Both the position numbers and the translations under genes were made by a program. From Diphasiastrum complanatum (taxonomy: Eukaryota; Streptophyta; Lycopodiopsida; Lycopodiales; Lycopodiaceae), in NCBI GenBank assembly GCA_029204225.1, contig CM055108.1, forward strand, positions 3,124,473-3,188,472: 64,000 nt of DNA, written 5' to 3'. The notes beneath the pieces were generated by a model, which worked only from the letters and a program-made list of their open reading frames with translations, ran no database searches and was not told where the DNA came from. Of the stretch, positions 22,639 through 55,731 are shown piece after piece. The stretch's first letter is position 1. Every line of letters starts with the position of its first letter.

Positions 22639-22676
22639 CTGCAAGGTAGTGACACACACAACCTTATTATGACTAT

Positions 22677-22735
22677 GGGCGTGAGCAGGCCCGCTACTGA
22701 CCACCATGTGCCCGCTAGCGGGCCCGCTCACGCCC
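22677..22735. repeat. GC-rich hairpin at the STP truncation point
   Basis: 20-base arms at 22677-22696 (gggcgtgagcaggcccgcta) and 22716-22735 pair with one mismatch around a 19-base loop. It is far richer in GC than its surroundings and sits where the transporter's upstream exons should begin. Confidence 0.85.
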
Positions 22736-22768
22736 GGGCGTAATTTGCAGACAGCTGTGTTTTTTGAA

Positions 22769-22950
22769 AGAGATCTCTTCCCGTCTCTCTTCTGAAAACG
22801 TTAGAGATCTCTTCCCGTCTCTCTTCCGTTCGTATATGCAGCAAGCTCCTACGGCCTTAAGAGATCTCTTCCCGTCTCTCTTCTGAAAACGATAGAGATC
22901 TCTTCCCGTCTCTCTTTCGTTCGTATATGCAGCAAGCTCCTACGGCATTC
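22769..22950. repeat. Tandem repeat, 91-base unit, two copies, with internal half-repeats
   Basis: agatctcttcccgtctctct occurs four times; pairs separated by ctgaaaacg, then by gttcgtatatgcagcaagct, form a 91-base unit seen at about 22769 and 22860. Short cagcaatctcctacg repeats follow to about 23013. Confidence 0.9.
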
Positions 22951-27182: not shown

Positions 27183-27620
27183 TTACTCCATCCGCAATAG
27201 CTTTGAACTTTGGTTCACATCCTTCACAAAGCAACAATCATGAGCAAATTCTACTTTCAACTTTTGATCAGTAATGACTCCAACAAAAAGTAGATTTTTC
27301 TTCAAACCTGGTATGTAAAGTACCTCCCTAATCATCCTGCTTCTGCCATCAGATAGTTGGATGGAAGCGGTGCCTATCCCCTTGATCTTGCACACATGAC
27401 CATTTGCTTGTGAAACAGACGTTCCATTATCCAACACTCTCAAGCTACTGAACCAATCCTTGTTACCTGTCATATGTCTTGTGGCTCCTGAGTCAATATA
27501 CCACGCTTGATCATCTCGATTAGATGACAATGCAGATATGAAGATGCTAGAGTCTTGAATCTCACCCTTATGGACAAGGTTACCTGCTTGCTTTGGTTTC
27601 CCCTTGCCTTGTTCCGCCAT
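27183..27620 (-). pseudogene. Copia protease and gag-pre-integrase (copy B)
   Basis: Open for 145 residues. AWYIDSGATRHMT near 27475-27515 has the intact catalytic D-S-G, unlike copy A. VLYIPGLKKNLLFVGVI is the pre-integrase motif. Protease would process the polyprotein; a frame change at about 27620 separates it from gag. Confidence 0.9.
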
Positions 27621-28400
27621 GAATTTGTGGCATTCACTCTTTTAATGGCTCTTTTTATCACAATGGAAGCACTTGCCTTTCTTCTTGGTCTTACTGGAAG
27701 ATCCCTCATCCTCCTGAGTCTTGGCAAATTGTTGTTTAGACTTCTTCTTGCCCTTGCCCTTGCCTTGTTTTTGGCCTGTTGCAAGTGCCTGATCATCAGT
27801 ATTTTGATGTCTTGCTTTTACCAATTCTCGCTGTTGCTCTTCTTGCATCAAGATTCCTATGAGCTCATCAAAGGTTGGCAATCTTTATCTTGATGCTATT
27901 CTGCTCACAAACATCTGATAGGGTTCTGCAATGCCACACAATGCATTGTGCACCAGCTCCACATCACGTATGCGCTCACCAATAGAATGCAGTTCATCTC
28001 TCATTGTCTTGATTTTGGTCATATAAGTCTGAATGTGCTCTCCTTATTCCATGCGGGCACTATTCAGTTTTGACTTCAGAAACATGATTCTTGATGGATT
28101 TGATGTCTTGAACTTCTCCTTTAGCACATCCCATGCTTGTCTGGGTGTAACAGCATCACAAAGGTGAGTAATGATGTGATGCATCATTGACAAGTTAATG
28201 AAGGTCAAAGCTTTCCTCATCTTCTTGTCGAACACTTTGATGTTCATTTCATTTGACGGCCTTCTCTCATCACCTGTGACGACTTCCCACACGTCTTTCT
28301 CCATCAGTATGTTTTTCATTTTGAATTTCCAAACCGCATAGTTGGAAATCCCGTCCAATTTATTACTTTCACTCAAAATGGACTCTCCCATATTTGTCAT
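27621..28400 (-). pseudogene. Copia gag (copy B)
   Basis: Starts at the ATG at 28400 (MTNMGESILSES). KLDGISNYAVWKFKMKNIL and VWEVVTG near the N-terminus, then QAWDVLKEKF, are typical of the copia gag UBN2-type domain. A frame change near 28040 and a short gap precede a Lys/Gln-rich stretch, and the zinc knuckle CFHCDKKSH near 27640-27670 is interrupted by a stop at 27643. Copy A lacks most of this gene. Confidence 0.88.
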
Positions 28401-29659
28401 CGCAAAACTGCTTGAAACTTCTGTCGTAGGCTAAAAGTAGTATGCCGAGGCCAACTGTGATGTCAGAAGTTAAAAATAATGACCTGCACTTTTTCTCTTA
28501 CTAGGCCACTTGCCGATTTTCCACCAAATTGAAAGCCAAATCGGCGTCGCCTTCCGAAACGCACTCTGTCATCAACTCCCAACTACGTGCCCAACGGAAT
28601 GGTAAAATCACTTTTGGCACACTCCGAAAACTTTTTCCACTGCAATCTTTTTTTTTTTTTGTATCGTACTTGCAGGTATAGTCCGAGTGCTCTTCGTTTG
28701 GAGTTTGTAGCCCTTCGTTTGGGTCAAAATGGATAAAGGAGATGAATTTAAGGGCTTTTTCACTTTTTGACCTATTTCTTCAGTTTGAAGAGACTTCAAC
28801 CTTTCGTGAATTTTAACCCAACTCAGCTTTCAAAATAAAATTTTTTATTGAAATTGAATGGCTAAATGTCCTTCAGCCCCTTCTAATGAAGTTTCCCATG
28901 GAAGGAAGGAGATCCAACGATCTCTTCGCATCTCACGGTCCCTGTTATTGCTGAGGGTTCAATCCCCAACATCCATTCTCCCCAACCTTCATCTAGCGGT
29001 CCAGATTTAATCTGCATGTTTGATCCTCCTCCACCAGCCGCTAGCACCCTGGAGATACAATGGCCTCCCTCACACTGGTCGCGTGTGAGTTGTCCGCCCT
29101 TCTCCACGAGCTTTCTCCTTCAAGCTTGGGTATGGCTGCCCTCAAAGATTCCTTATGGTTCCTCAGATTCAGCGCAGCTGTCCACGACCACTTCAGATCT
29201 ATTTGAACTGATCAGGGCATCCTCCTTCCAACTTTTACAGCAGCAGAAAATGTTGAGTATAGAGAGAAATCCACGTTTTTGAGCTTTCAGACCCTAGGCC
29301 AGAGTTTTTCTCAGAGAACTGATCTTGACCTTCTGTTCACAGTTCTCTGACAGACCAATCATCTTCCTCTAAGGTCGCCCTACTGCTAGGAGTGTGTTGT
29401 TTCAATTCGTTTGTCAAACGGTGTTTGATTGAATGCACACTAACTGCAAACTCCAAGTAGCCTTCCTTTGAAATTTCAAAATTCTGTTTGCTGAGGTTTT
29501 GATTCACTGACAATTCTTGTCTCTGAATCCTCACACAGTCTCAAGCTCACCAGTGCTTCTCTTTCCATCTTCAACCCGCCGTAAACCCCAAACTCTTAGA
29601 AGACTATTCTCTCGAAGCTCTTTTCAATGGCGACCTTGTACTGTGTACACTCCTGTACG
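28401..29659 (-). other. Copia untranslated leader (copy B)
   Basis: 1.26 kb between gag start and primer binding site. The part 28544-29105 is conserved with copy A, but short frames on either strand are not, supporting a non-coding leader. A run of 11 T occurs near 28649. Confidence 0.75.
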
Positions 29660-32506: not shown

Positions 32507-33647
32507 AGATAAACCAATTACACTAAAATTCAAAATGAAAAGGGTGGGAAACCCGAGGCCGTGTCCTCGCGCATATGTCCTCGCGTCGCGTCGTGCCTCG
32601 CCACATGCGGAAGGCAGGTGGAGTGAGCACATGTGGAGGAGGAAAATAGATTGCCTCTAGTAAAATAAGTGTAGCATCTCTTTACATCATTACATAGATT
32701 ATGAAAAATTGCACACTTTTTCTTTTTGGATCACTTCAATCCGATGCATGGTTAAAAAGTTATGGCAGTTTGAAGATTCATACCCTACTTGATATCGGAG
32801 CCGAGCGACCAATGACCTGTTCACATCGAACATAATGATCTGGTCGCATGGCTGAGATATTGTAGCATATGTTTACACAATTGCATAGATCATGAGAAAT
32901 TGCACACTTTTTTTTTTGGATCACTTCAGTCCGACACATAGTTAAAAAGTTATGGCCATCTGAAGAATCATACCCTCCTTGATATCGGAGCCGAGTGACC
33001 CATGGACTCTTCTCACTGAACATAATGCTCTGGTCGTGCAGCTCCGATATTGCAGCCACGGACCCATGGCCTTTTCTCACTGAACATAATTCTCTGGTCG
33101 TCTGGCTGCGATATCGGAGCTGCGCAACCAGAGCATTATGTTCAGTGAGAAGAGGCCATGGGTCGCTCGGCTCTGTTATCAAGGAGGGTATGAATCTTCA
33201 TATGGCCATAACTTTTTAACCGTGTGTCGGATTGAAGTGATCCAAAAAAAAAAAGTGTGCAATTTTTCATGATCTACGCAATTGTATAAACATATGCTAC
33301 AATATCTCAGCCATGCGACCAGATCATTATGTTCAATGTGAACAGGTCATTGGTCGCTCGGCTCCGATATCAGATAGGGTTCAAACTGCCATAACTTTTT
33401 CATCGTGCATCGGATTGAAGTGATCCAAAAAGAAAAAGTGTGCAATTTTTTGTAATCTACGTAATGGTGTAAAGAGATGTTACACTTCTTTTACTAGAGG
33501 CAATCTAGTTTCCTCCTCCACATGTGCTCACTCCACCTACCTTTCGCATGTGGTGAGGCACAACGCGACGCGAGGACATATGCGCGAGGACATGGCCTCG
33601 GGTTTCCCACCCTTTTCATTTTGAAACTTAGTGTCATTGGTTTATCT
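32507..33647. mobile_element. Foldback element, 1.14 kb near-perfect hairpin
   Basis: Two arms of about 550 bases (32507-33062 and 33107-33647) are inverted copies with a spacer of about 44 bases. Outer ends pair as agataaaccaat / attggtttatct, followed by gaaaagggtgggaaacccg and its complement. Within each arm a shorter cassette (ggtcg ... cgatatcggagc ... gaacataatg) recurs, so the element is also internally repetitive. No transposase frame. No clear target duplication flanks it. Confidence 0.85.
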
Positions 33648-36293: not shown

Positions 36294-36370
36294 GATTTTT
36301 GGCAAAATCACTCTCAACTCAAAAAATTAGAGATGATCAATTAATGCACCTAATTCAAGACATCGATAAG
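36294..36370. repeat. Copy of internal element sequence outside the LTR
   Basis: 77 bases matching 35037-35117 (aaaaatcagagataatcaat and neighbours). This places internal sequence on both sides of one LTR, as left by recombination between LTRs or tandem elements. Confidence 0.7.
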
Positions 36371-38493
36371 CAAGAGGAGCTACAACAGTAGCATGATATT
36401 ATAGATGAGCATGACGAGGAGCTACAACAGCAACGTGAGCAACAGGATGAGTAGGCTTATGTAGCAACAGCCAAGGCCAATACTAGCGGCATGCAGCATG
36501 AGTACGAGCACGAGCAGCAGCCAAGGCCAATACTAGCGGCATGCAGCATGAGCACGAGCACCATCAACTACCTCTTTGGACTTTAGAGGATGGTGGACAT
36601 TAAGTGCTCATCAAGGTGGAGGACAACAATCAACAAGAGGAGCTGCAGCAACAACATGATATTATAGATGAGAATGAGGAGGAGCTACAGCAACAATGTG
36701 AGCAACAGGATGAGCAGGCTTATGCAGCAGCAGCCAGGGCCGATACCGGCCGCATGCAGCACGAGCACGAGCAGCATTCTCCAACAGCAGCCATGGTCAG
36801 TACCAGCGGCATATAGCACGAGCACGAGCACCAGCAGCATCCTCTTTGGACTTTAGAGGAGAGTGGACATCGAGGGCTCGTCGAACTAGAGGATAGCGAT
36901 CAGCAAGAGGAGCTGCAACAACAACATGATATTATAGATGAGCATGAGGAGGAGCATGAGCAGTAGGGTGAGCAGACTTATGTAGCAGTAGCTAGGGCCA
37001 ATACCAATGGTATGTAGCACGAGCATGAGCACGAGCGCCAACAACATCCTCCAACAATAGCCAGGGCCAGTACCAGTGGCATGCAACATGAGCACGAGCA
37101 CTAGCAACATCCTTTTTGGACTTTAGAGGAGGGTGGACATCGAGTGCTCGTCGAGATGGAGGACAATGATCAGCAAGAGGAGATGTAGCAGCAGCATGAT
37201 ATTATAGATGATCATGAGGAGGAGCTGCAGCAGCAGCAGGATATTATAGATGAGCATGGGCAGGCTTATGCAATAGTAGCCATGACCAATACCATCAGCA
37301 TGTAGCACAAGCACAAGCACGAGCAGCAGTAGCATCCTCCAGCAGCAGCCAGGGCTAGTACCAGCGATACGCAGCATGAGCATGAGCACCAACAACATCC
37401 TCTTTGAAAATTAGAAGATGGTGGACATCGAGTGCTTGTCGAGCTAGAGGACAACGATCAGCAAGAGGAGCTGTAGTATGTTATAGATGGGCATGAGGAG
37501 GAGCTGCAGTAGCAGCATGAGCAGCAGGATGAGCAAGCTTATGTAGCAGCAGCTAGGGCTAGTACCAATGGCATGCAGCACGAGCATGAGCACGAGCACG
37601 AGCAGCATTCTCCAGTAGTAGCCATGGCCAGTACCAACGGCATGCAACACGAGCATGAGCACTAGCAGCATCCTCTTTGGACTTTAGAGGAGGGTGGACA
37701 TCGAGTGCTCGTCGAGCTAGAGGACAACGATCAGCAAGAGGAGCTACAACAACAACATGATATTATAGATGAGTATGAGGAAGATGAGCAGGCTTATGCG
37801 GCAGCATCTAGGGCCAATACCAGCGGCATGCAGCATGAGCACGAGCACCAACAACATCCTCCAGCAGCAACCAGGGCCAGTACCAACGGCATGCAGCACG
37901 TGCATTAGCACCAGCATCATTCTCTTTGGACTTTAGAGGAGGGTCGACATCAAGTCCTCGTCGAGTTGGAGGACAACAATCAACAACAGGAGCTGCAGTA
38001 GCAACATGATATTATAGATGAGCATGAGGAGGAGCAATAGCAGCAGCGTGAGCAGCAGCACCAACAACATCCTCCAAAAACATCAGCATGCAACACGAGC
38101 ACAACCACCAGCGATCAGCAAGAGGAGCTGCAGCAGCAACATGATATTATAGATGAGCATGAGGAGGAGTTGCAGTAGGGCCAGTACCAGCGGCATGCAG
38201 CACGTGCATGAGCACGAGCACCAACAACATCTTCCAGCAGCAGCCAGGGCTAGTACCAACGGCATGCAGCATGAGCACGAGCACCAGCACCAGCAGCATC
38301 CTCTTTGGAGTTTAGAGGAGGGTGGACATCAAGTGCTCATCGAACTGGAGGGCAATGATCAGCAAGAGGAGTTGCAGCAACAACATGATATTATAGATGG
38401 GCATGAAGAGGAGATACAACAACAGCGTGAGCAGTAGAATGAGCAGGCTTATGCAGCAGCAGCCAGGGCTAGTACCAGCGCCATGCAGCACAA
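36371..38493 (+). repeat. 270-base coding-like satellite, block 1 (plus)
   Basis: The landmark ggtggacatcgagtgctcg recurs at about 36592, 36862, 37132, 37420, 37693, 37942 and 38321, giving spacings of roughly 250-290 (one 379). In one frame each unit reads EELQQQHDIIDEHEEELQQ, a second QQ-rich part, QAYAAAARASTSGMQHEH, a similar ASTNGMQHEHEHQQH and PLWTLEEGGHRVLVELE. Because the unit is near 270 bases, the frame often carries through, but stops and shifts break it. Rich in Gln, Glu, His and Ala codons, hence the CAG/GAGCAC look. No host gene features (start context, introns) were found, so I treat it as a satellite. Confidence 0.9.
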
Positions 38494-39222
38494 TGTGAAG
38501 ATTATTAAAATATTATTTTCCTATCTCGAGTTTGAGATCATGTCCATGATGATTTCCACTAGATTTCATGTTGTACATATAAGGAGCATGAATTGAGCAC
38601 ATATCCTTCTAGTGTAGCTCAGATTTAAGTTAGATAGGTTCAATTATGATGACATGCAAATGTTTAGATAGCATGCAAAGTCTTATTGTATGCATGCAAA
38701 CCACATGCAATCAGTGCATGCAACATGCAAAGTAGTTTTTGTGATCTACACATGTCTAGGCAATTTTATGAGTTGACATGCAGTACATGCAACACACATG
38801 CATGCAATTACACATGTGGATCTCTGGTAGGTGAATTAGTTTAGTTAAGTGGACTTTCCATGCAACTCCACTGTAGGAATTCGAGTCTCTCTCATGTAGG
38901 GAAAGCTGGGCATGTTTTGCCACATTGTGAATATTGAGATTTTGGTGTTTTGGACTTATTCTCTCTCTACTCGAGTTTTCTAGGTATGATTTTCTCTCTC
39001 TACCCAAGAGCAACCTCTTTTTCACATACTGAACACTTAGAATTATTTCTAACATTCATTTATCATAGCGAAGAGTTAGACTTTTCATCAGATGTATGCC
39101 ATTGTGCTCTTGCCTTAGATTTTTCAAGCATACTGTTCTTTGATCAATCTTGTGCAATCACAACACCTCAGTAAAATCCTGTAGGGTGTGTGGTAAAGTT
39201 CACACATGCTAAAAACTTCACA
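38494..39222. mobile_element. Solo LTR (729 bases) inside the satellite
   Basis: Starts TGTGAAG and ends CTTCACA, a matching inverted edge, and is flanked by the 4-base target duplication acaa (38490-38493 and 39223-39226). Removing it and one acaa restores a continuous satellite phrase (atgcagcacaagcacgagc). No internal coding; hence a solo LTR left by recombination. Confidence 0.8.
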
Positions 39223-39226
39223 ACAA

Positions 39227-39801
39227 GCACGAGCATGAGCACAAGGAGAATCCTCCAGCAGCATCCAAGGCCAGTAATGAGGAGCTACAGCAGCAGCATG
39301 ATATAATAGATGAGCATGAGGAGGAGCAACAATAGCAGCATGAGCAGCAACAGCACCAACAACACGAGCACGAGCACGAGCACCAGCAGCATCCTCTTTG
39401 GAAATTAGAGGAGGGTGGACATCTTGTGCTCATCGAGCTGGAGGATAGCGATCAGCAAGAGGAGTTGCAGCAGCAGCATGATATTTTAGATGAGCATGAG
39501 GACGAGCGACAGCAGCAACGCGAGCCGCAAGATGAGCAGGCTTATGTAGCAGCAGCCAGGGCCAGTACCAACGACATGCAGCATGACCACGAGCATGAAC
39601 ACAGTAGCATCCTCCAGCAGCAGCCAGGGCTAGTACCAGCAGTATGTAGCATGAATACGAGCTCAGTAGCATGCTCTTTGGACTTTAGAGGAGGGTGGAC
39701 ATTGAGTGCTCGTCGAGCTGGAGGATAGCGATTAGCAAGAGGAGCTACAGTAGCAGCATGATATTATAGATGGGCATGAGGAGGAGCTGCAGCAATAACG
39801 T
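39227..39801 (+). repeat. 270-base coding-like satellite, block 2 (plus)
   Basis: Direct continuation of block 1 after the solo LTR, with landmarks near 39413 and 39695. It is cut at 39801 by the copia LTR. Confidence 0.9.
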
Positions 39802-40730
39802 CCAAGTACCATGGGATACAAACATTTGATCTGATATCGTGACATCAGCAAAAGTACTTTAGGACGTGGCTAATCTGCCACTCTTGTAATCCATGGTTAG
39901 TTATAGATATTTAATCTTTTTGATCAGGGACACGAAAAAGTTCACGAACTATATACTTTCTGTTTAATGTAAGACGAAAATATATAGGATACATGTCCGC
40001 CTATGTGCGAGACAATTTTGTAAGAGGATCAGCAGATCCAGAAGTCCGCTAGTAAGTGAGACACTATTCATGAGAGAATTGTATTTCTCTCACACCAATG
40101 CATTGTCTGGATTTGTCACACAGTGCTTGAAATCAGAAGATCAATAGATAATATTGTAGCTGTTATGCGCATATTATTCTGAATGATTGTATGATCTTGA
40201 ATGAATATTTGTCTGCTACTATTCATGTATCTCATTTACTTGTTTATTCAATTCCGCACATTGGTTTGATTTTGTTAAAAGCTATATTAATCTATAATGT
40301 AGAATCAGCAATGTCTGTCTACATTCTAGAGGATTGTAGGAATGATATAGCCGGCAGTGACCAGCAATCATATCTGAATGCCACACTAACTGATTTTGTT
40401 CGCAAATGTTTTCACTTCGTGTTTCGTTTCATTTCGCTTCGCGATCACTTGGCTTTCAGCATAAATAAGTTTCAGAGCTCATTCAAGTTTCATTTTGCTT
40501 CGCTTCATTTCATCTAGTTTTGTTTCATTTCGTTATAGAGCCTGATTAATCTTTTTTGCAAATTGTTCTCGTTTCGTTACAGAGCTTGATTGATCTTCTC
40601 GCGAGTTCTTCTCGAGCAGAAATTATTCGTGATCAGAACAATTTTGCGAATAATTTCGTGAATCATTTGAAATACTCCCATCAGTTCATCACTAAAATTT
40701 TACTGGAATTTTAATTTGCACTTTTCATCA
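39802..40730 (+). repeat. Copia LTR (first copy, left end truncated)
   Basis: Matches 42440-43393 with the same order of features: ccaagtaccatggg, the tgcgagacattttgt block, a long AT-rich part and a tract of tttcgtttcatttcgct. It ends cttttcatca, one base before the primer site. The left edge joins satellite DNA without TG, so the first bases are missing. Confidence 0.85.
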
Positions 40731-40731
40731 G

Positions 40732-40743
40732 TGGTATCAGAGC
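40732..40743 (+). other. Copia primer binding site
   Basis: tggtatcagagc, exact complement of the initiator tRNA-Met 3' end, one base after the LTR. Confidence 0.9.
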
Positions 40744-42342
40744 GAAGTGGGGGTCTTGTACGAGCAAGTGGAGTGTACTTCACCCTGTGCTTGCATGAGT
40801 GGGGGTGTTCGAGGGCAAGCTACGCATAGGCCGGCTGCCTCCGTGGATGCACCAGAAGGAGTGCAATCATCATCCCATAAGTAAATGGAGACTAAGACAT
40901 CACCCAAATATAAGTTGAAAGTAGACATAATACCCTTGTCCCTTGGTACCACCCTTTTGGGGTCAAGTGGAAAAGAGACGGGTGGCTAGGCGGTGGGGAT
41001 GGGATCTCACGCGTGAATCTCCTAGAAGGTTGACAAGAGAATGAAGAGCGCCAGCAAGATTTGTGCCCAGCTACTCAGCTTCTATGTCAATAGAGTTTTG
41101 TGGATTCAGTGGTGAACCACAGACATTCGAGGAGGCAGTTGAATGTCTAGAGAAGGACAAATGGATCCAAGCCATGAATGAGGAGATGGAGTCCATGAAA
41201 AAAAAAGCAAGTATGGACGTTGCAGCCATTACCAGATAAGCGAAAGACTGTAATATGCGAGTGGTTATACAAGTTGAAGTATGGACCGGATGGAGATATC
41301 TCAAGGTATAAAGCAAGACTTGTAGCAAGGGTATTTTCTCAGCTAAGGTGAAGTATGATATCTCGAAACATTTCAAGATTGCAGACTTGGGAGAAGCCGG
41401 ATGTTATCTTGGCTTACAAACTGACAGAGACTATGAGGGAGGTAAATTGTACCATCATCAGTCCAGATATACCCAGAAAGTCCTAGAAGATTATGGGATG
41501 CTGAGTTGCAAAGGAGCAAATACTCCAATGCTTCCAGGAACAGTCTTGACGAATGAAGACTGTTTGAAAACTGAAGAAGAGAGATAATTGATGTAGCATA
41601 CACCACCGTACAAGAAGCTGATCGGATCACTGATGTATCTTGCAGATAACACATGTCTTGAAATTGCTTATGCCGTGTTCAGGATGAGACAATTCTGTAC
41701 GAATCTAAGCTCAACTCATTGGAAGATTGTGAAATGAATTTTTCAATACCTTCAATTAACGAAGGAATTTGGATTGTGTTATTCTCATGATGCAGGGTCC
41801 CAGATGCTTTCCTACAGTGATGCTAGCTAGGCATCTCTCAAGGACGACTACAAGAGTGTCTCAAGAGGATGCACCATCGCGTCAGGAGCAGCAATTCTCT
41901 AGGTCATCAAGAAACAGACCATTGTGGCTCAATCATCCTGCGAAGCAGAATATGTAGCGGCAGCAAAGATGGCCAATGAAATCATTTGGCTCAAACAGTT
42001 CCTTGACGAACTGGATGAAACGAGAAATGAACCTCTAGTTTTGCAGATAGACAACACATCTGGACCCTGTGTTTCACTCAAGGATGAAACACATTGCAAT
42101 CAAGTACCACTTGATAAGGAATCTGATCGGGAAGAAGATGTTGTAGACTACTTTCATTGGAACGAAAGAGATGGTTGCTGACATTTTGACAAAGGCCTTA
42201 GACAAAGGTCTGTTTGAGAAACGGAGGAGCAGTCTTGGAGTCATCAAGCTATCATGCTTTGAGAGAGAGTTGAAGAAACAAAACGTTTCAATTGCCAAAG
42301 CTTTGCTAGCTTTCCACCCTGATTTTGACACAGAAGACACAT
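40744..42342 (+). pseudogene. Deleted copia internal region (RT and RNase H)
   Basis: After 270 bases of leader, gag, protease and integrase are missing and the sequence enters the RT module start near 41050. A second deletion, near 41335, removes the RT core with the catalytic YVDD: sequence jumps from SRYKARLVAR to KVKYDISKHFKIADLGEAG. TPMLPGTVLTNEDC and the RNase H part (CEAEYVAAAKMANEIIWLKQ, 41940-42000) follow with frame changes. It ends at the stop at 42340-42342 (DTEDT). Same family as 48436-50246, which keeps the RT core. Confidence 0.88.
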
Positions 42343-42439
42343 GAAGCCAAAATATTCGTGAAAAATTTTGTGACACACGACACAAAATTGTTAAGCGACA
42401 CAAAATCATTCGTGCTCCACAAAAGACCAAGAAGATCAA

Positions 42440-43393
42440 CCAAGTACCATGGGGTACAAACATTTGATCTGATATCATGACATCAGCAGAAGTACTTTAG
42501 ATGGCTAATCGGCCACTCTTGTAATCCATGGCTAGTTATAGATATTTAATGTTTCTGATCAGGGAAATTACACGACGCAACACAAAAAAGTTCGCGAACT
42601 ATACACTTTCTGCTTGATGCATAAAACTGTAAGACGAAAATATACAGAATACATGTCCACCTATGAGCGAGACATTTTGTAGAAGGATCAGCAAATCCAG
42701 AAGTCCGCTAGTAAGCAAGACACTATTCGTGAGAGAATTGTATTTTTCTCACTCCAATGCACTGTGTGGATCTGTCACACAGTGCTTGAAATCAGAAGAT
42801 CAATAGATAATATTGTAGCTGTTATGCACATATTATTCTGAATGATTGTATGATCTCGAATGAATATTTGTCTACTACTATTTGTGTATCTCATTTACTT
42901 GTTTATTCAATTCCGCATATTGGTTTGATTCTGTTGAATGCTATATTAATCTATAACATAGAATCAACAGTGTCTGTCTACATTTTGGAGGATTGTAGGA
43001 ATGATATAGCAAACAATGAACAACAATCATATCTGAATTTCACACGAACTGATTTTGTTCATTTTCACTTCATGTTTCGTTTCGTTTCGCTTCGCGATCA
43101 CTTGGCTTTCAACATAAATCAATTTCAGAGCTCATTCAAGTTTCATTCCGCTTCACTTTGTTTCGTTTAGTTTCGTTTCATTTCGTTTAGTTTCGTTAAT
43201 GAGTCTAATTGATTTTTTTTGCAAATTGTTCTCGTTTCGTTACAGAGCTTGATTGATCTTTTTGTGAATTCTTCTTGAGCAACAATTATTCATGATCAGA
43301 ATAGTTTCACTTATAATTTTGTGAATCGTTCGAGAAACTCCCATCAGTTTGTCACCAGAATTTTACTAGAATTTCAATTTGCACTTTTCATCA
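42440..43393 (+). repeat. Copia LTR (second copy)
   Basis: Partner of 39802-40730. The true left edge probably lies up to 100 bases further left (gaagccaaaatattcgtg), where the first LTR has no counterpart. Ends cttttcatca like its partner. Confidence 0.85.
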
Positions 43394-43394
43394 G

Positions 43395-43745
43395 TGGTAT
43401 CAGAGCCAAGTGGGGGTCCTCTACAAGCAAGTGGGGTGTACTTCACCCTGTGCTCGCTTGAGTGGAAGTGTTGGAGGGCAAGCTACGCATAGGCCGACTG
43501 CCTCCATGGATGCACCAGAAAGAGTGCAATCATCATTCCATAAGTAAATGGAGACTAAGACATCACCCAAATATAAGCTGAAAGTAGACATAATACCCTT
43601 GTGCCTTGCTACCAGCCCTTTTGGGGTCAAGTGGAAAAGAGGCGGGTGGCTAGGCGGTGGGGGTGGGATCCCACGCGCGGCCTGTAGGTGTGCGCATTGC
43701 ATGAGAGTGTCTACTGCACTAGAATGTTTCCGCTACTGACAAACT
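43395..43745 (+). repeat. Primer site and leader outside the second LTR
   Basis: tggtatcagagcc at 43395 and about 290 bases after it repeat 40732-41020 nearly exactly. An LTR followed by primer site and leader again indicates a tandem LTR-internal-LTR-internal arrangement, the second internal region being cut near 43680. Confidence 0.85.
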
Positions 43746-43748
43746 CTG

Positions 43749-44015
43749 ACAATAGGAATTTGGTGGGCCTTCAACGGATACAACTTAACCTTTCTGGTTC
43801 AGAGGTTGCACCGTGATGCAACTTAACCTTTCTAGTTCAAAGGTTGCACCACAATCATGGAGCCTTTTGCCCCTTATGTCAGCCGCATTTCGGGATCCCA
43901 TCCCCGGATGCCTAGCCGCCCACTTCTACCTATGGAATTTCTTTGAGCATGGACTGTGGCTCCACTTTGCCATTCCAGCACTCCCTCTCAAAGTGGGGCA
44001 CATGTCACGTTGCTT
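43749..44015. repeat. Direct repeat, copy 1 (ggtgggccttcaa unit)
   Basis: Contains acttaacctttctggttcag twice in tandem and tcatggagccttttgcccct; it recurs at 44739-45060. It ends in gctctgatacca at 44016. Confidence 0.8.
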
Positions 44016-44371
44016 GCTCTGATACCACCTCAGAGTTTGTCGACAATGGGGAGTGGTCCAATAAACGATGTGGCGTGTCGTTCGCGCCTGCAGGCTGCGT
44101 GCGGGATCCCATCCCCACCGCCTAGCCACCCGCCATCATTCCCCTTTGACCCCAAAAGGGCTGGTACCAGGGGACAAGAGTACATTGTCTACAATGAGCT
44201 TATATGTGGGTTCTGTTATAGTCTCCATTTGCTTATGGGACAAATGCACTCTTTTTGGTGCCTTTTCGGATGCAGCCGGCTTGCATCCTCCAACACCCCC
44301 ACTCGAGTGAGCATAGGGCGAAGGAAACCCCCACTTGCTCGTTCAGGACCATAACACTTGATTTGATACCA
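44016..44371 (-). repeat. Short primer-site unit 1 (minus strand)
   Basis: Bounded by gctctgatacca at 44016-44027 and gatttgatacca at 44360-44371, with ggtaccagggga and cacccccactcgagtgagc between. It is a diverged inverted copy of the leader at 43395-43745. Confidence 0.7.
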
Positions 44372-44727
44372 TGTTAGAGTTTGTTGGCAGCGGAAACATT
44401 CCGGTCCAGTAGACGCTCTCACGCAATGCGCACACTGTGGGCCGTGCATGGGATCCCATCCCCACCACCTAGCCACCCGCCTCTTTCCCACTTGACTCCA
44501 AAAGGGTTGGTACCAAGGGACAAGGGTATTATGTCTACTTTCAGCTTATATTTGGGTGATGTCTTAGTCTCCATTTACTTATGGGATGATAATTGCACTC
44601 TTTCTGGTGCATCCATGGAGGCAGTCGGCCTCTGCGTAGCTTGCTCTCAAACACCCCCACTCAAGCGAGCACAGGGTGAAGTACACCCCACTTGCTCATA
44701 AAGGACCCCCACTTGGCTCTGATACCA
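44372..44727 (-). repeat. Short primer-site unit 2 (minus strand)
   Basis: A closer inverted copy of 43395-43745, ending in gctctgatacca at 44716-44727 and the edge TGTAGGAG. With the plus copy it forms an inverted repeat with arms of about 350 bases. No coding frame. Confidence 0.8.
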
Positions 44728-45069
44728 TGTAGGAGTTTGGTGGGCCTTCAATGGATACAACTTAACCTTTCTAGTTTAGAGGTTACACCATGATGCAACT
44801 TAACCTTTCTGGTTCAGAGGTTGCACCAAAATCATGGAGCCTTTTGGCCCTTCTATGAGCCTCGTTCCAGGATCTCCTCCCCGGATGCCTAGCCGCCAAC
44901 GAATCCAAGTGCTCCCCCTTATCCACAAAGGGGCTGGTACCAGAGGACATTAAACACTTGGATATTTATCACTTATATCCACTTTGCACAAAGTTCCACT
45001 TCATTTTTGAGATTTTTTTAAGCGTGGGCTAAGGCTGCACATTGTCGTTCCAACACTCTTGATAATTGC
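44728..45069. repeat. Direct repeat, copy 2 (ggtgggccttcaa unit)
   Basis: Second copy of the segment at 43749-44015, with the tandem acttaacctttctggttcag motif, ending where the minus-strand satellite begins. Confidence 0.8.
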
Positions 45070-48000
45070 AATCCTCCAGCTCGACGAGCACTCGATGTCC
45101 ACCCTCCTCTAAAGTCCAAAGAGGATGATGTTGGTGCTCGTGCTCGTGCCGAATGCCATTGGTACTGGCCCTGGCTGCTGCTTGAGGATGCTGTTGGTGC
45201 TCGTGCTTGTGCTGCAAGCCGCTGGTATTGGCCTTGGCTGCTGCTGCATAAGCCTGCTCATCCTGCTACTTACACTACTGTTGCAGATCCTTCTCATGCT
45301 CATCTATAATATCATGTTGCTGCTGCAGCTCCTCTTGCTGATCGTTGTCCTCTAGCTCGACCAACACTCGATGTCCACCCTCCTCTAAATTCCAAAGAGG
45401 ATGCTGCTACTACTCGTGCTCATGCTGAATGCCACTGGTATTGGCCCTGGCTGCTGCTGGAGGATGTTTTTGGTGTTCGTGCTTGTGCTCGTCCTGCATG
45501 CCGCTGGTACTGGCCCTGGTTGCTGCTACAAAATCCTACTCATGTTGTTGCTCATGCTGCTACTGCTGCTCACACTGCTGCTGTTGCTGCTACTCATCTA
45601 TAATATCATGCCGCTCCTATAGCTCTTCTTGATGATCGCTGTCCTCCCAGCTCAACGAGCACTTGATGTTCATCCTCTTCTAAAGTCCAAAGATGATGTT
45701 GTTGGTGCTCATGCCCGTGCTGCATGCCACTGGTACTGGCCCTTACTGTTGCAAAGAGAATGTTGCTGGTGCTCGTAGTCATGCTGCATGCTGCTGGTAC
45801 TAGCTGTTGCTACATAAGCTTGCTCATCCTGTTGCTCACGGTGCTACTGTAGCTCCTCCCCATGCTCATCTAGAATATCATGCTGTTGTTGCAGCTCCTC
45901 TTGTTGATTACTGTGCTCTACCCCCCTCTAAAGTCCAAAGAGGATGCTGTTGGTGCTCGTGCTTGTGCTATATGCCGCTGGTACTGATCCTGGCTGTTGT
46001 TGAAGAATGCTGCTAGTGCTCGTGCTCATGCTTGTGCTGCATGCCGCTGGTACTGGCCCTGGCTGCCACTGCATAAGTCTGCTCATCTTGCTGCTCACGT
46101 TGTTGTTGTAGCTCTTCTTCATGCTCATCTATAATATCATGTTGTTGCTGCAGCTCCTCTTGATATCGCTATCCTCCAGCTCGAGGAGCACTCGACATCC
46201 ACCCTCTTCGAAATTCAAAAGAGGATTCTGCTGGTGCTCGTGCTCATGCTGCATGCCATTGGTACTGGCCCTGGCTACTGCTGGTGCTCGTGCTCATGTT
46301 TGTGCTACATGTCGCTATTACTGGCCCTGGCTGTTGTTGCATAAGCTTGATCAGACTCATAAATAATATCGTGTTGCTGCTGCAGCCCCTCCTCATGCTC
46401 ATCTATAATATCATGCTGCTGCTGTAGCTCCTGTTGATGATCGCTGTCCTCCAGCTCGACAAGCACTCGATGTCCACCCTTTTCTAAAGTCCAAAGAGAA
46501 TGCTGCTAGTGCTTGTGCTCGTGCTGCATGCCGCTGGTATTGGCCTTGGCTGTTGCTAGAGGATGTTACTGGCGCTCATGCTCGTGCTCGTGCTGTATCC
46601 CGCTGGTACTGGCCCTGGTTGTTGCTGCATAAGCTTGCTCATCTTGCTGCTCACGTTGCTGCTGTAGCTTCTCTTCTTGATCGTTGTCCTCCAGCTCGAC
46701 GAGCACTCGATGTCCACCCTTCTCTAAAGTCCAAAGAGGATGCTGCTCATGCTCGTGCTCGTGCTGCATGCCGTTGGTACTGGCCCTGGCTGCTGCTGCA
46801 TAAGCCTGCTCATCCTACTGCTCATGCTGTAGCTGCTGCTCCTCCTCGTGCTCATCTATAATATTATGTTGCTACTGCAGCTCCTCTTTCTGATTGTTGT
46901 TCTCCAGTTCGACCGACCACTCGATGTCCACCCTCGTTTAATGTCCAAAGAGAATGCTGCTGGTGCTCGTGCTCATGCTGCATGCCACTAGTACTGGCCC
47001 TAGCTGATGCTACATAAGCCTATTCATCCTGCTGCTGCAGCTCCTCCTCATGATCATCTATAATATCATGATGTTGTTGTAGTCCTCTTGCTGATTGTTG
47101 TCCTCCAGCTCGATGTCCACTCTCTTCTAAAGTCCAAATAGGATGCTGCTGGTGCTCGTGATCATGCTGCATGTCGCTAGTACTGGCCTTGGATGCTGTT
47201 GGAGGATGCTGCTGGTGGTCCTTCTCATGCTCATGCCGCATGCCGCTGGTACTGGCCTTGGCTGATGTTGCATAAGCTTGCTCATCCTGTTGCTCACGAT
47301 GCTGTTGTAGCTCCTCCTCATGCTCATCTATAATATCATGTTGTTGCTGCTGCTCCTCTTGCTCATCGCTGTCCTCCAGTTCGATGAGCACGCGATGTCC
47401 ACCATCCTCTAAAGTCCAAAAAGGATGTTGCTGGTGCTCGTGCTCGTGCTATATGTCGCTAGTACTGACCCTTGCTGTTGCTAGAGGATGTTGTTGGTGC
47501 TCGTGCTCGTGCTAGTGCTGCATGCCGCTAGTATTGGCCTTGGTTGTTGCTCAATAAGCCTGCTCATCCTGTTGCTTACGCTGCTGCTGTAGCTCCTCCT
47601 CATGCCCATCTATAATATCATGCTGCTATTGTAGCTCCTCTTGTTGATCGCTGTCCTCCAGGTTGACGAGCACTCGATGTCCACCCTCCCCAAAGTCTAA
47701 AGAGAATGCTGCTGGTGCTCGTCCTCATGCTTCATACTACTAGTACTGGCCCTGACTGCTGCTGCAACTCATCCTCATGGTTATCTATAATATCATGTTG
47801 CTACTACAGCTCCTCTTACTGATCGTTGTCCTCCAACTCGACGAGCACTCGATGTCCAACCTCCTCTAAAGCCCAAAGAGAATGTTGTTGGTGCTTGTGC
47901 TCGTGCTGCATGCCGATGGTACTGGGCCTGGCTGCTACTGGAGGATGTTGTTGTTGTTGTTGGTGCTGCTGCTCACGCTGCTATTGTTGCTTCTCCTCAT

Positions 48001-48435
48001 GCTCATCTATTATATCATGTTGCTGTTGTAGCTCCTCGTTATTGGCCCTAGATGTTACTAGAGGATGCTGCTGGTGCTCATGCTCGTGATTGTGCTACAT
48101 GTCGCTGGTACTAGCCTTGGCTGCTACTGCATAAGCCTGCTCATCCTGTTGCTCACGCTGCTACTGCAGCTCCTCCTCATGCCCACCTATAATATCGTGC
48201 TACTGCTGCAGCTCCTCTTGCTGATCGTTGTCCTCCAGTTTCACGAGCACTCAATGTCCACCCTCCTCTAAAGTCCAAAGAGGATGTTGCTGGTGCTGGT
48301 GCTCATGCTGCATGCTGCTGGTATTGACCCTTGCTGCTACTGGAGGATGCTGTTGGTGCTCATACTCATGCTACTGCTGCATGCCGCTAGTACTGGCCCT
48401 GGTTGTTGCTGCATAAGCCTGCTCATCCTGTTGCT
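45070..48435 (-). repeat. 270-base coding-like satellite, block 3 (minus)
   Basis: The same satellite as block 1 but inverted: the landmark appears as cgatgtccaccctcctctaa, about a dozen times. On the minus strand it reads the same Gln/His/Glu-rich units; the longest open run is 47020-47391 (123 residues). Leu/Cys-rich frames on the plus strand are just the complement. Confidence 0.9.
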
Positions 48436-50246
48436 AATTGTTTGCAAACATTTTGGCTTCGTGTGTCCTATGTGTCAAAATCAGAGTGGGAAGCTAGCAA
48501 AGCTTTGGCAATTGAAACGTTTTGTTTCTTCAGCTCCCTCTCAAAGCATGATAGTTGACGACTCCAAGATTGCTCCTCTGTTTCTCGAACAGGCCTTTGT
48601 CTAAGGCCTTTGTGAAAATGTCAGCAACCATCTCCTTCGTTCCAATGAAAGTAGTCTGCAACATCTTCTACCCGATCAGAACCCTTATCAAGTGGTACTT
48701 GATTGCAATTCGTTTCGTCCTTGAGTGAAACACATGATCTTTTGTCAGATGTATTGCGGATGTGTTGTCCATCTGCAAAACTAGAGGTTCATTCCTCGTT
48801 TCGTCCAGTTCGTCAAGGAATTGTTTGATCCAAATGATTTCATTGGCCATCTTTGCTGCTGCTACGTATTCTGCCTCACAGGATGATTGAGCCACAATGG
48901 TCTGCTTCTTGCTGACCCAGAGAATTACTGCTCCTAATGGGATGGTGCATCCAACTGAGACACTCTTGCAGTCATCCTTGAGAGATACCCTGCTAGCATC
49001 ACTGTAGGAAAGCATCTAGAACCATGCATCACGAGAATAACACAATCCAAAATCCTTCATTAACTAAAGGTATTGCAAAATTTGTTTCGCAATCTTCCAA
49101 TCAGTTGAGCCTAGAATCGTACAAAATTGGCTCATCCTGAACACGACATAAGCAATGTCAAGACGTGTGTTATCTTGAAGATACATTAGCGATCCGATCA
49201 ACTTCCTGTACGGTGGTGTATGCTGCATCAATTCTCTCTCTTCTTCAGTCTTCGAACAATCTTCATTCGTCAGGACTGTTCCTGCAAGCATTGGAGTATT
49301 TGCTCCTTTGCAACTCAGCATCCCGTAATCTTTTAGGATTTTTTGGGTATATCTGGACTGATGAAGGTACAATTTGCCTCCCTCATAGTCTCTGTCAATC
49401 TGTAAGCCAAGATAACATTTGGCTTCTCCCAGGTATGCAATCTCGAAATGTTTTGAGATATCATACTTCACCTTAGCAATAAGCTCCTCACTCTTGCATG
49501 ATATCAGAGTATCGTCCATATACACAGCTACAATGATGATCTTCCCATCTGTAATTTTTACATAAACATTGGAATCAACCATTAGTGGCTCGAATCCTAA
49601 GAATTTTAGGGCTTGATCTTTCTTTTTATACCATTGTCGTGCTGACTGCTTCAGACCGTAGATACTCCTATGCATCCTGCATGCATAAGTAGGAAATGAA
49701 TTCGAGATATAGCCTGGGGGTTGATCCATGTAGACTTCTTCATCTAGTTCACCATGCAAGAAGGCTGTCTTTTCATCCATGATGTGAATTCTGAGATCAT
49801 AAGCAACTGCATATGCAAATAGTAAATGTAAGGATGAGTGTTTCATGACAAGAGAGAAAGTCTCAGTATAGTCAATTCCATATCTTTGAGAAAATTCCTT
49901 CGCTACAAGCCTTGCTTTATACTTTGAAATATCTCCATCCGGTCCATACTTCAACTTGTATACCCACTTGCATATTACAGTCTTTCACTTATTTGCTAAT
50001 GGATACAACGTCCATACTTGGTTTTCTCTCATGGATTTCATCTCCCCATTCATGGCCTGGATTCATTTGTCCTTCTTTGGACATTCAATTGCTTCCTTGA
50101 ATGTCAAGGGTTCACCACTGAATCCACAAAACTCTTCTGACTTAGAAGCTGAGCTTCCTGGCACAAATCTTGCTGGCGCTCTTTGTTCTCTTGTCGACCT
50201 TCTAGGAGATCCTCCTAGAGCTGCAATGCTCTTGCCTTTACCTACT
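48436..50246 (-). pseudogene. Copia RT and RNase H, best-preserved RT in the window
   Basis: On the minus strand 49954-49064 is open for 296 residues: KARLVAKEFSQRYGIDYTET, the first catalytic block IMDEKTAFLHGELDEEVYMD, RSIYGLKQSARQWYKK, and the intact catalytic VYMDDTLIS near 49515-49540, then GANTPMLAGTVLTNEDC and LIGSLMYL. After a stop near 49016, RNase H continues (48668-49015) with CEAEYVAAAKMANEIIW and QMDNTSAIHLTKDH. The RT could be near-active in sequence but gag, protease, integrase and LTRs are missing; both ends abut satellite DNA. Same family as 40744-42342, in the opposite orientation. Confidence 0.92.
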
Positions 50247-51260
50247 GAGGAGCTGCAGCAGCAGCATGATATTATAGATGAGCATAAGGAGGAGTTGCAG
50301 CAGCAGAGTGAGCAGCAGGATGAGTAGGCTTATGCAACAATAGCCAGGGCCAGTACCAGCGGCTTGCAGCATGAGCATGAATACAAGCATCCATCAGCAG
50401 CATCCTCCAACAGCAGCCAGGGCCAGTACCAACGACATGCAGCATGCGCACGAGCACCAACAACATTCTCTCTGGACTTTAGAGGAGAGTGGACATCGTC
50501 GATTGAGTTGGAGGACAACAATTAGCAATAGGAGTTGCAGCTACAACATGATATTATAGATGAGCATGAGGAGGAGCTACAACAGCAGTGTGAGCAGCAG
50601 GATGAGCTGGCTTATGCAGCAGCAGCCAGGGACAGTACCAGCGACATGCAGCATGAGCACGAGCACCAACAACATCATCTTTGGAATTTAGAGGAGGGTG
50701 GACATCGAGTGCCCATCGAGCTGGAGGACATCGATCAGCCTACAACAACAGCATGATATTATAGATGAGCATGAGGAGGAGCTGCAACAGCAGGATAAGC
50801 AGACTTTATGCAACATCAACCAAGGCCAGTACCAATGGCATGCAGCACGAGCACGAGCACGAGTGACAACAGCATCCTCCAGCAGTAGCCAGGGCTAGTA
50901 CCAAAACGGCATGCAGCATGAGCACGAGCACCAGCAGCATCCTATTTGGACTTTAGAGCAGGGTGGATTCGAGTGCTCGTCGAGCTGGAGGACAATGATC
51001 AACAAGAGGAGTTGCAGCAACAACATGATATTATAGATGAGCATGAGGAGGAGCTACACCAACAATGTGAGTAGCATGATGAGCAGGCTTATGCAGCAGC
51101 AACCAAGGCCAGTACCAGCGACATGCGGCACGAGCACGAGCACAAGCACCAGCAGCATCCTCCAACAACAGCCAACACCAGTACCGGCGGCATGCAACAC
51201 GAGCATGATCACCAGCAACATTCTCTTTAGACTTTAGAGGAGGGTGGACATCGAGTGCTC
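50247..51260 (+). repeat. 270-base coding-like satellite, block 4 (plus)
   Basis: Begins gaggagctgcagcagcagca and ends cgagtgctc at 51260, where the RT remnant starts. About four units with landmarks near 50490, 50697, 50962 and 51243. Confidence 0.9.
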
Positions 51261-51970
51261 TGACAATTTTTTGCCCCATGACCATATAAATATTTCACGT
51301 GTATGATTCCATTTGTAATACAATAGATCATGTTTAGAATGTTTGAAAGCATATTTAATGGCTTTTTTCCGGACCATCTAAGGGTATATTCTCGTAGCCT
51401 TTTGGAATATCTGCAACCCATACATTGGTGATCAAGGATGGTAGATTTCGATAGAAGTCCATAGATAACTCACATTGCCAATGTAGCATAGTGTCTACTC
51501 TTAGGATACTCTTGTATGTATTTAGGCTTAAGGCCTGCACCTTCCATGAGGAACGGTGACAACAAACCAAGAGCTCTTGTGAGAAATTTGGCAAGTTTAG
51601 TAAAACAGCAATTGTGAGCATTGGTAATCCATCTAAATGAATCTTTGTGAGCTTTAAAAGTGCAAAGGAGGTAAGGTAGAGAATCATTTCCCAATATTAT
51701 TTCTGGTAAAAATTTATCAGTAATGTCTGATATATAAGCAAGAGAATCCTCAACAGAGTTAGATAATTCATTTGGAGAAGGTGTAAAATCTGGGCTATTG
51801 AGTCTTTGTATGGCTAGCTTTTGTGCAAAGAATTTACACATAAAGCATGGGTTGTGTTGTGCTTTATCAATCCCATTAACATAAAGAAACTTGGTAAGCA
51901 ATTGTAGTGCATAATTGGCAATCCTAGTCCTTCGTCTTCGATTTTGAGATTGGCTTGTCAATAACAGCAC
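51261..51970 (-). pseudogene. Non-canonical reverse transcriptase, central part
   Basis: On the minus strand 51970-51470 is open for 166 residues: LLTKFLYVNGIDKAQHNPCF, LNSPDFTPS, DSLPYLLCTFKAHKDSFRWI and TNAHNCCFTKLAKFL. After one frame change near 51480, WVADIPKGYENIPLDGP follows (51420-51365). This order, a K-x-HK-x-x-x-R(W/F)-I-T block then a hydrophobic strand with D and YEx-IPL, corresponds to RT motifs before and including the first catalytic Asp (near 51410). It is unlike copia, Ty3 or LINE RTs and reminds me of large RT families in algae and seedless plants and, more loosely, of Penelope-like RTs. The second catalytic block is lost, cut by satellite at 51260. Family name uncertain. 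Confidence 0.5.
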
Positions 51971-51974
51971 TAGA

Positions 51975-52740
51975 CAGTTTAGTCTTCATGATTTCATTGT
52001 CCCCTTCCTCGAACGTGACCACCTTCTCTGCAACAGTTGACTGAAGTTCAGTGTTGATAATCTCTTTTGCTTCTACTGAGATATCTTTTGCAAATAATTT
52101 TGCAGCATCGCGGTCATAGTCGGGGTCATCTTTAAGATCTTCTTTGGTCGTAGATTTGTTCATTGACTTGCTAGAAGATTTCCTCTTCGAGGATTTTCTG
52201 CGCTTCGTTGAAGATTTCTGTTCAAGTTTCGAGGAGTCTTTGCTTCTCTTTGTGACTTTGAATATCTTCTCTACGTCACTTGGCTAGGACTGGTCATCTG
52301 TCTTCACCAATTTTCCTTCAATAACATCAATCCTCTGCACAACATCAGTCAAAGCTTTTGCTTTCGAGTTTGCAACAGCTGGTGTTGCTACATACTGATA
52401 TTTGGGTCATAGCTTCTACGACTGAGGGCAGTCAGGATACTTGTGGCCAAGCTCCCCGCAGTTCGAGCATAACGGTACATAACCAATCGGCGTTTAATCG
52501 GCTGAGGACAGTTAGGAGAAAAATGTCCCGGCTCTCCGCAGTTGTAATAGTTGCTCGTTAGTCGCGGTTTGAGACTTCGTTGGTCCAACAAATTCAGGAG
52601 GATTATGTCTTCTTGGTGCGAACTTTGGTCTATCCTGCTGGGCTGATGGTGCAGTTCCTTGAACATAGTTAGTAGTCGCATCATTATGAAAGGGATAATA
52701 AGTATTACGAGTGCTTAGATCATCTCATTTTGTAATGTAT
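51975..52740 (-). pseudogene. Zinc-knuckle and Lys-rich part of the same element
   Basis: Two gag-like CCHC knuckles: CSNCGELGHKYPDC (near 52430-52470) is complete; NYYNCGEPGHFSPNC (52505-52550) has lost its first Cys. They are in different frames. After ALTDVVQRIDVIEGK the chain is basic (KRRKSSKRKSSSKS near 52195-52240), then acidic, ending at 51925. It overlaps the RT frame by about 46 bases in another frame. It separates two parts of the RT, so it is either an insertion or a domain of this family. Confidence 0.55.
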
Positions 52741-52923
52741 GCTACTTATGTTGATCTGAGTAAGCATGAAAACTATGAGCTATTGGATTCATACAAAAGA
52801 AGAAAATTGTTATCCTTGAAGTTGCTTGTCTACATTAAGGCCTTCTCTTAAGTTGTTCATTATCTGACCTCAGTGCTTTGATTCATTTGCCAGTTTGATT
52901 CTCAGCATGCATTTTGAATTGTC

Positions 52924-53460
52924 TTAAGAGAAGCTACAATGAAGCCATTTACCCTTTCTAATAAAGCTTAGTGCAGTATTTTTGTAGAAAACAACATGCT
53001 TTACTTTTGTAGTTTTGTCCATAGAGGCATAAGAAGGTAAAAATTCCATAAGTCTAAGCCCACCGTCATAAAGTTCGGAAGCAACCTCATTCACATTAGT
53101 TTGTCTTAAAGTAATATGGTTTAGGCCGTTTTTCAAAAATTTTCGTAAAAGAGTACTTTTGATGATATTACAGTCTGTACATATGACACGACCAAAGTTT
53201 TTTGATATGCCAGTTTTTGAAATGTTTAAAAGTATGACAATGATAGGAATGTAGGTTATCTATATGAAATTCACAAAAAACGTCATAAGAAAAATACCAT
53301 TTGCATTTTATACTTGGTAGGTATGAATAGCCAAACGTAATATCATCAAAGAGATCATCTACAGTACCAAAAAGTTTGCGTAAAACGTGAGAATAAAAGT
53401 TCTTCACATGGATAACTTCAAAAACTCTATTTAGGTAACATAAGTGCAGCAAAAAAAGAA
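52924..53460 (-). pseudogene. Non-canonical RT, N-terminal part
   Basis: Minus-strand readings include VIHVKNFYSHVLRKLFG and DDLFDDITFGYSYLP, then in another frame FLKNGLNHITLRQTNVNE (near 53090-53130) and KHVVFYKNTALSFIRKGK. The GLNHIxLxxTN phrase is, from memory, a recurring N-terminal feature of the same RT type. Assignment depends on that memory and is tentative. Confidence 0.4.
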
Positions 53461-53589
53461 ATTTCCTGTGTCATGGCTAGTGGAAAACTGAAGTCGGCCC
53501 GTCGTTGAAGTACTGATTGCTCTTCTAACCATCCCATCTTCATCCTGCACATCGATCAAGATATATAAAAGTTCAATTTTTTGACTGGT

Positions 53590-54960
53590 AGATCATTCTT
53601 GGTGCCCTACTTGCCCTTCCTTTTCTCTAAAATTTGAGAATCGTTTTTTCTTTCCTGCTCCCGAACTAGAGATAACTGAGTTTGGATTGTTATGATTGAA
53701 CGAGCCAGATCTTTTGTTCGAGTTTTGAAAGTATTTATCTTGGAGGGTAGAAAAGCTAGGTTGTTTTAAAAGGCACTCAATTTCTCGGATATTTTCAACA
53801 TCTCCCAGGGGTGCAAGGAGTTTGGCGGAGGAGTCTTTGGCAAGTTCAATGGAAGCATCGATCATGTATTGGTGAATAAAGGGAAAAGTGTGAAGCATCG
53901 ATCAAGTGTAATTTCACTACATCCCTAGCAGGTTATGAAGCCATATAAAAAAAGCGTTCATCTGATTTTGAAGGGAAGCACCAGGAAAAAACTTAGCAAG
54001 ATTATTCATTATGAACCAGATGGCATGGTCAAACCAGATGATAGAGGAACTATTTTTGCATTTTCACCACATCTACATTTGAAAAAGGGTCTTTTCCAGA
54101 TCCAGATCATGGCTTGGTGTAAATTCATTCTATTAAAGCCAGTTTCAAAATGGCCTCTGGTACGAGCCCAAGTTTGCTCAGAGGGACACCGAGAAGGTTC
54201 AAATTTGTTCATACGAATAATGGTGTCGAAGGCTATAGGGGTCTCAAGAGAAGGATTTTTATGCAGGGCAGCCAACCTGCAGACTTGTATCTCTTTTTCT
54301 ATCATATGAGTCATCATAATTCAAATATCGATAAGGATGGGTGCAAGAAAGTTGATAGATGGAAGACTCCAAAGTTTGTAAGACGTAAGAGCAGATTTGT
54401 ACTCAATAATTCTACTGGGGACAAAAGGAACCTGACAACTTTTAGATTGGCAAAAATCATAAGAAAAAAGGTCACCAATATTGCAAATGTCTTGGGAAAA
54501 GATCTCCAGTTGAGAGGAACTATCCTCATCAAGGTCATCAGTAAAGACAAGAGGATGTGGTGAAAGAGGTGCATCAGAAACAGAAGGGGAAATAACAGCA
54601 GGAGTGATACCATTTTCATTTTCCAGGCACATGAACACTTTTCTAATGTGTAAATTGTAGAACTTTTCTTCTTCTTCAAATCTTTCGATGAAATCATTGA
54701 GACGACTATTGAGATTTTCCACTAAACTCAAGAGTATCTTTCTTCTTAACAAACTCAAGATAAATCTTAACCCAGTCAATGGTCTCAAGTAAATCAATAA
54801 GACAGAGAATCTTATCCTTAATTCTGGCAGAAGAACAAGTGGCACTATCAGTATCAATGACAAAATTATGCATCTCAACGACCTTTTTCATACAACAAAT
54901 CAAAGTCTGAACAAAATGGTTAGGCGGAGGAAGGGGCTCTCCATAATCCAAAGAAGCAGC
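53590..54960 (-). pseudogene. Gag-like upstream region of the same element
   Basis: Several minus-strand frames follow one another: 54951-54706 (MDYGEPLPPP), continuing by a frame change to 54321, then 54317-54009 and 53898-53593 (a Ser/Asn-rich, basic end). They are on the strand of the RT, in the place of a first open reading frame, and have helical, charged character, but no domain I can name. Confidence 0.4.
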
Positions 54961-55731
54961 TTCCTGAAACCATCTTGTGGACTAAATCATGCAAATGGAC
55001 CTTTGTTAGCTTATGAATCGGATAAAAGGTAAGAGCTTCAGTACTATCCCAACCAAGGAATAGTCAGATTTACACCACCAGGATGCATATAGAGAGATAC
55101 AAGACTGCACTTAGTTCCTCTTGACAAAGCAAGACTGAAGCTCTTTGAAGCCTTTATTTATAATCCAACAAGGTAAATACAACTGAAAAGTAAAATACAG
55201 TACTAGAAAGCACCACAAAGCATAACCACTCTCAAGACGTCTAGCTGATACCTGCCACCATCCCACAAAACAAAACCGCTCAAGTTAGTTTAGTGAGGAA
55301 GACAGGTGTCATAGCTGAACGATAGTTGTTATTCATGTCCAAAAGAAGTTATACTACTTAACATCTTTGAATAGCATTGTAAAGCATAGTCCAGTCTTCC
55401 CAAACACAGGATGTTTTAGCGATAGGCCAAGCCGTTATATCACCGTATCAGGATGAGTGCCATACTAATCAGCTTACGGGCGTCCATATCAGTTCGTTTT
55501 ATGCATAGAAGAGTATGAAAATTTTTAACCGTTTAAAGTTTTACTTAGCCAAAAGACCTGGTGTGAACACATGTGCTTGTATTAGAGCAAATCCATGCTC
55601 TACTGACCCAAGTGACCCTTACAGAGTGAGGTATGTCATGCACTACTATCCATACTCCTGAGCATATCCATGCTTTCCAGTTGTATCTCACCAAGGGTCT
55701 AAAGTAGCACTTGACAAGGTAGGGTAAGGCA

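Follow-up and report, generated by a model that had tools for sequence, protein, structure and literature searches.

Organization of the locus

The window, that is, the whole stretch of DNA analysed in this study, is 64,000 nucleotides of the genome of Diphasiastrum complanatum. The part of interest, 51261-54960, is decayed coding DNA. It is read in this way because the open frames on its minus strand exceed those found in all 500 dinucleotide shuffles. That is, the five longest minus-strand frames sum to 726 aa, a value reached by 0 of the 500 shuffles (mean 351, maximum 503). The longest minus-strand ORFs are 188 and 171 aa. The longest ORF of the shuffles had a mean of 89 aa and a maximum of 175 aa, and a length of at least 171 aa occurred in 1 of the 500. 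The plus strand of 51261-54960 carries frames of 146 and 126 aa. The features of this part and of its neighbourhood, in the order of the minus strand, are as follows.

53593..54981, minus strand: decayed coding-like stretch with ORFs of 188, 103, 102 and 91 aa, family unassigned
52924..53470, minus strand: upstream coding-like pieces with GLNHITLRQTN (ORFs 53470-53168 and 53259-52924, in different frames)
51924..52724, minus strand: gag-like scrap with one exact and one damaged CCHC knuckle and a Lys/Ser-rich tail (PF00098, regular expression and three-frame reading)
51261..51985, minus strand: reverse transcriptase (RT)-like remnant with DKA..N...C, LPY.....K.HK...R.I (RT motifs 1/2) and VADI...YE.IP (RT motif A), read by translation
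50247..51260, plus strand: minisatellite array, copies spaced about 282 bp
49984-49064, minus strand: Ty1-copia RT (RVT_2, PF07727, E 5e-62)

The preliminary description of this DNA had presented the whole as one element extending over 3.7 kb of one strand. Translation of the minus strand from 53.13 to 51.38 kb recovered every peptide that it quoted, and the shared strand thus holds; the idea of a single element does not follow, as the pieces need not belong together. For the outermost piece, 53593..54981, the best Pfam match was a sub-threshold RhoGEF (E 0.005, obtained with concatenated pieces), and the profile search of 53.5-55.0 kb gave no family above threshold.

The minisatellite array forms the end of a composite block, 36359-51260, in which arrays with a spacing of about 282 bp lie in both orientations (36359-38491, 39279-39801, 45056-48435 and 50247-51260). 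The block also holds copia-derived DNA in two inverted copies that are 87-89% alike (41017-42367 and 48436-50210), together with a direct repeat of 1.2 kb (39802-41013 and 42440-43677, 87%). Elsewhere in the window, a palindrome of about 1.15 kb with inner repeats (32507-33647) matches its own reverse complement at 90%, and repeat DNA copies about 90% identical, holding copia-type frames, lie at 14993-17005 and 26304-29106. A frame overlapping the edge of the latter repeat (26426-25743) matches a retroviral SH3-like domain. Fragments of a sugar transporter gene are found on the minus strand at 21974-22800 (PF00083, E 7e-36), with a 91-bp tandem duplication (22768-22949) at their edge, and a minus-strand ORF at 4217-4897 contains a RING finger domain (PF13639, E 7e-14). 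The copia elements and gene fragments of the window are in keeping with plant DNA.

The RT-like remnant and the pieces upstream of it

In the remnant, the K.HK block begins at 51655 and WVADIPKGYENIPL lies at about 51420-51379, both on the minus strand. The two peptides DSLPYLLCTFKAHKDSFRWI and WVADIPKGYENIPL had been described as standing in RT-like order, and translation agrees with this: RT motifs 1/2 are followed by motif A, though the two are in different frames within 51985-51261. There is an in-frame stop after DSLPYLLCTFKAHKDSFRWI. The distance from the Arg of motif 2 to the Asp of motif A is 74 residues. A second stop comes soon after motif A, and motifs B and C are not reached.

The motif A string VADIPKGYENIP resembles VKVDVTGAYDTIP of telomerase. 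A telomerase probe gave exact matches to three distinct telomerase sequences in PDB, where telomerase reads VKVDVTGAYDTIPQ. To judge how readily such strings arise, we shuffled the residues of the 208-residue read-through 200,000 times. The pattern K.HK.{3,5}R.[IV] arose in 42 shuffles and D[IV]...[YF][DE].[IV]P in 7, but no shuffle (0/200,000) had the two together in the right order, figures that overstate the case for an RT because the patterns were written after the sequence had been read. Each pattern occurs once in the six frames of the window, both times within the remnant. The K.HK pattern alone was found 27 times in 852,766 six-frame residues of the window and the loci collected in our scans, many of which had been pre-selected for a similar pattern. 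An AlphaFold single-sequence model of the read-through had a mean pLDDT of 39 and is meaningless.

The remnant is cut off before motifs B and C by the right edge of the minisatellite array (51260). A motif search through the whole window did not recover the missing part of the RT. Of the nearest minus-strand [YF]xDD strings, one (49522) belongs to the copia RT, and the other, which is riddled with stops, lies at 41914 within copia-derived repeats; the catalytic motif C (YxDD) of the remnant itself was not found within the window, which the truncation at 51260 would explain. This copy is incapable of activity, because it is cut before RT motifs B and C.

Other parts of a retroelement were also sought. 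One regular expression for a GIY-YIG endonuclease gave no match in the six frames of the window. At the gathering threshold, the whole window had no Rfam match of any kind, and when E values up to 10 were admitted for 44-64 kb, none of the seven weak matches was a hammerhead ribozyme. Around 51.3-55 kb, no terminal or flanking repeats (pLTR) appeared among direct families of 25 or more bases or blastn matches of 90 or more bases, and no inverted flanking repeats among the 25 longest of 74 inverted pairs.

Upstream of the RT-like motifs, GLNHITLRQTN lies at about 53127-53095 on the minus strand, as had been stated. The profile search gave no family match above threshold for 52924..53470. The GLNHI piece seems to resemble the N-terminal part of Penelope-like proteins, and 52924..53470 may represent the N-terminal part of the same RT protein.

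The CCHC block has the GLNHI piece on one side and the RT-like piece on the other. Two CCHC knuckles had been reported here. One of them is exact (C..C....H....C at 52469, by regular expression); the other, YYNCGEPGHFSPNC, lacks the first Cys, yet ORF 52714-52388 containing it matches zf-CCHC (PF00098, E 3.4e-6). Thus a CCHC zinc knuckle, the mark of a retroviral-type gag, was found both by PF00098 and as an exact knuckle. The two knuckles are in different frames from each other, and the frames of the block differ from that of the RT-like piece. The Lys-rich region of the preliminary description is confirmed as ORF 52283-51924 on the minus strand, the end of which shares about 60 bases with the beginning of the RT-like frame (51985). 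The flanks of the block share only 7-base matches, and no convincing target-site duplication was seen at its junctions, where matches reached no more than 7 and 8 bases. The simplest reading is that the CCHC/Lys-rich block is probably a gag scrap distinct from the RT, and that it came to this place by nested insertion. Gag-like frames with Cys/His knuckle-like motifs also occur on the plus strand at 13260-14049 (exact C..C....H....C at 13389). These knuckles are unlike those at 51924..52724, and 13260-13667 had no Pfam match.

Searches for related sequences

The collections scanned were prokaryote genomes, viral contigs, phages, plasmids and PDB, in which eukaryote RTs are represented by PDB chains only. 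A profile search against RT families had been proposed in the preliminary description. For the pieces tested, no RT family matched in Pfam, NCBIfam, PHROGs or PADLOC, and no RT matched among PDB sequences. That is, an ordinary LTR or LINE RT did not appear as best match, and there was also no RT profile match at all. RVT_2 was absent from the RT-like pieces in Pfam, and the same library detected the copia RT next door at E 5e-62. Against the telomerases in PDB, the RT-like pieces gave no sequence match up to E 10.

Plasmids and phages each yielded 5 records, none of them better than E 2. In IMG/VR, none of the 43 candidates for the 111-aa GLNHI ORF was confirmed, and the four motif patterns were found in 6, 0, 6 and 5 contigs; when translated at the match and judged by eye, none of these 17 resembled a relative. 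The GTDB motif scan gave 28 contigs, none resembling a relative by eye.

Several candidates were rejected. With the 171-aa ORF, one of three IMG/VR candidates was confirmed (locus L001, E 2e-4); the match is on the strand opposite to an ORF in a phage-like contig and was rejected by eye. When the RT and N-terminal pieces were compared with loci L001-L035 by tblastn, the best value was E 0.011 (L001), and all scan matches were judged to be chance. Locus L028 gave a tblastn match at E 0.087; the frame that holds its motif match spans just 37 aa, and the tblastn match was gone at a tighter limit. Among profiles, Ig_TMEM131L_3 (E 0.05) and AFG1_ATPase (E 0.1) were weak matches to unrelated families. 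CagZ (E 0.06-0.15) and phrog_16080 (E 0.004) were discounted as chance matches; the latter covers residues 37-76 of the 113-aa ORF and lies upstream of motif A.

Interpretation of the remnant

On the basis of the motif order and the telomerase-like motif A, we think that the remnant is probably what is left of a Penelope-like retroelement (PLE), now dead and truncated, both its RT identity and its PLE class being inferred from sequence. The preliminary description had said that it loosely recalls Penelope-like RTs. By motif order and motif A, this is the best available reading, and profile support for the RT identity is absent. The statement that it differs from the usual plant elements agrees with our finding that no ordinary RT profile matches the motif pieces.

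We considered whether the stretch is instead a decayed host gene or a non-RT mobile-element protein, with RT-like motifs that are coincidental and were seen after the fact. No RT profile and no solved RT matches at a useful E-value, the motif patterns were chosen with the sequence already read, and the K.HK pattern by itself turns up easily, all of which would fit such an origin. In contrast, both motifs stand in order, and the Asp, Tyr, acidic residue and Ile-Pro of motif A are at telomerase-like places. We regard this explanation as rather unlikely. An ordinary LINE or LTR retroelement RT, decayed beyond profile detection, is more doubtful still. It would suit the copia RT lying just 1.3 kb off and the CCHC knuckle close by, but Pfam readily finds that copia RT and finds nothing RT in the RT-like pieces, and the spelling of the motifs, K.HK...R.I and DI...YE.IP, is not known from copia. 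The copia RT shares the strand and the neighbourhood of the remnant; in contrast to it, the remnant has no PF07727 match.

It is also conceivable that the gag-like CCHC/Lys-rich ORF and a PLE-like (telomerase/Penelope-type) RT are the two ORFs of one gag-bearing plant retroelement lineage. The two are on the same strand, the Lys-rich frame runs into the start of the RT-like frame, and no convincing target-site duplication speaks for a nested insertion. However, the GLNHITLRQTN piece, which seems to come from the N-terminal part of the RT itself, lies beyond the CCHC block, and the arrangement is represented by a single copy only. We consider such a lineage highly improbable.

If the remnant is derived from a PLE, the intact element would have used a telomerase-related RT to copy its own RNA onto a chromosomal 3' end. 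In endonuclease-less PLE forms, copying takes place at exposed chromosome ends. PLE copying probably occurs by target-primed reverse transcription (PMC11167929). What would have survived in the present copy is a piece of the N-terminal part together with RT motifs 1, 2 and A, and the remainder would have been lost at the edge of the minisatellite/copia composite at 51260. The gag-like CCHC scrap would have come to lie between the two RT-like pieces, probably via nested insertion.

Among known systems, telomerase reverse transcriptase shares with the remnant the motif A pattern D[IV]...Y[DE].IP; the remnant differs in being a decayed fragment with no PDB telomerase match up to E 10. Chlamys-group PLEs carry an N-terminal GIY-YIG, which was not found in the window. 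They belong to the same PLE class, as read here, and their motif A spelling is presumably similar to that of the remnant. They are reported in Ectocarpus (PMC12477816), and Craig et al. 2021 reportedly describe them in the green lineage. EN(-) PLEs, which have no endonuclease and are likened here by description, would agree with the remnant in their telomerase-like RT motifs and in that no GIY-YIG was found in the window; unlike them, the remnant is without motifs B to E, and no flanking repeats were found.

One source names Selaginella moellendorffii, Pinus taeda and Picea abies as species with EN(-) PLEs and describes PLEs as present in plants with a patchy distribution (PMC9033089). The preliminary description had proposed a poorly described RT lineage of seedless plants, to which the remnant may conceivably belong; Selaginella, from which PLEs are thus already known, is itself a seedless plant. 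The word "penelope" has zero counts in the available portions of the genome papers on Ceratopteris (two) and Alsophila (one). Since PLEs have already been reported from plants, a PLE scrap in a plant genome would be a known kind of element. Thus, if the remnant is a PLE, it would be one more dead plant copy within this already known patchy distribution.
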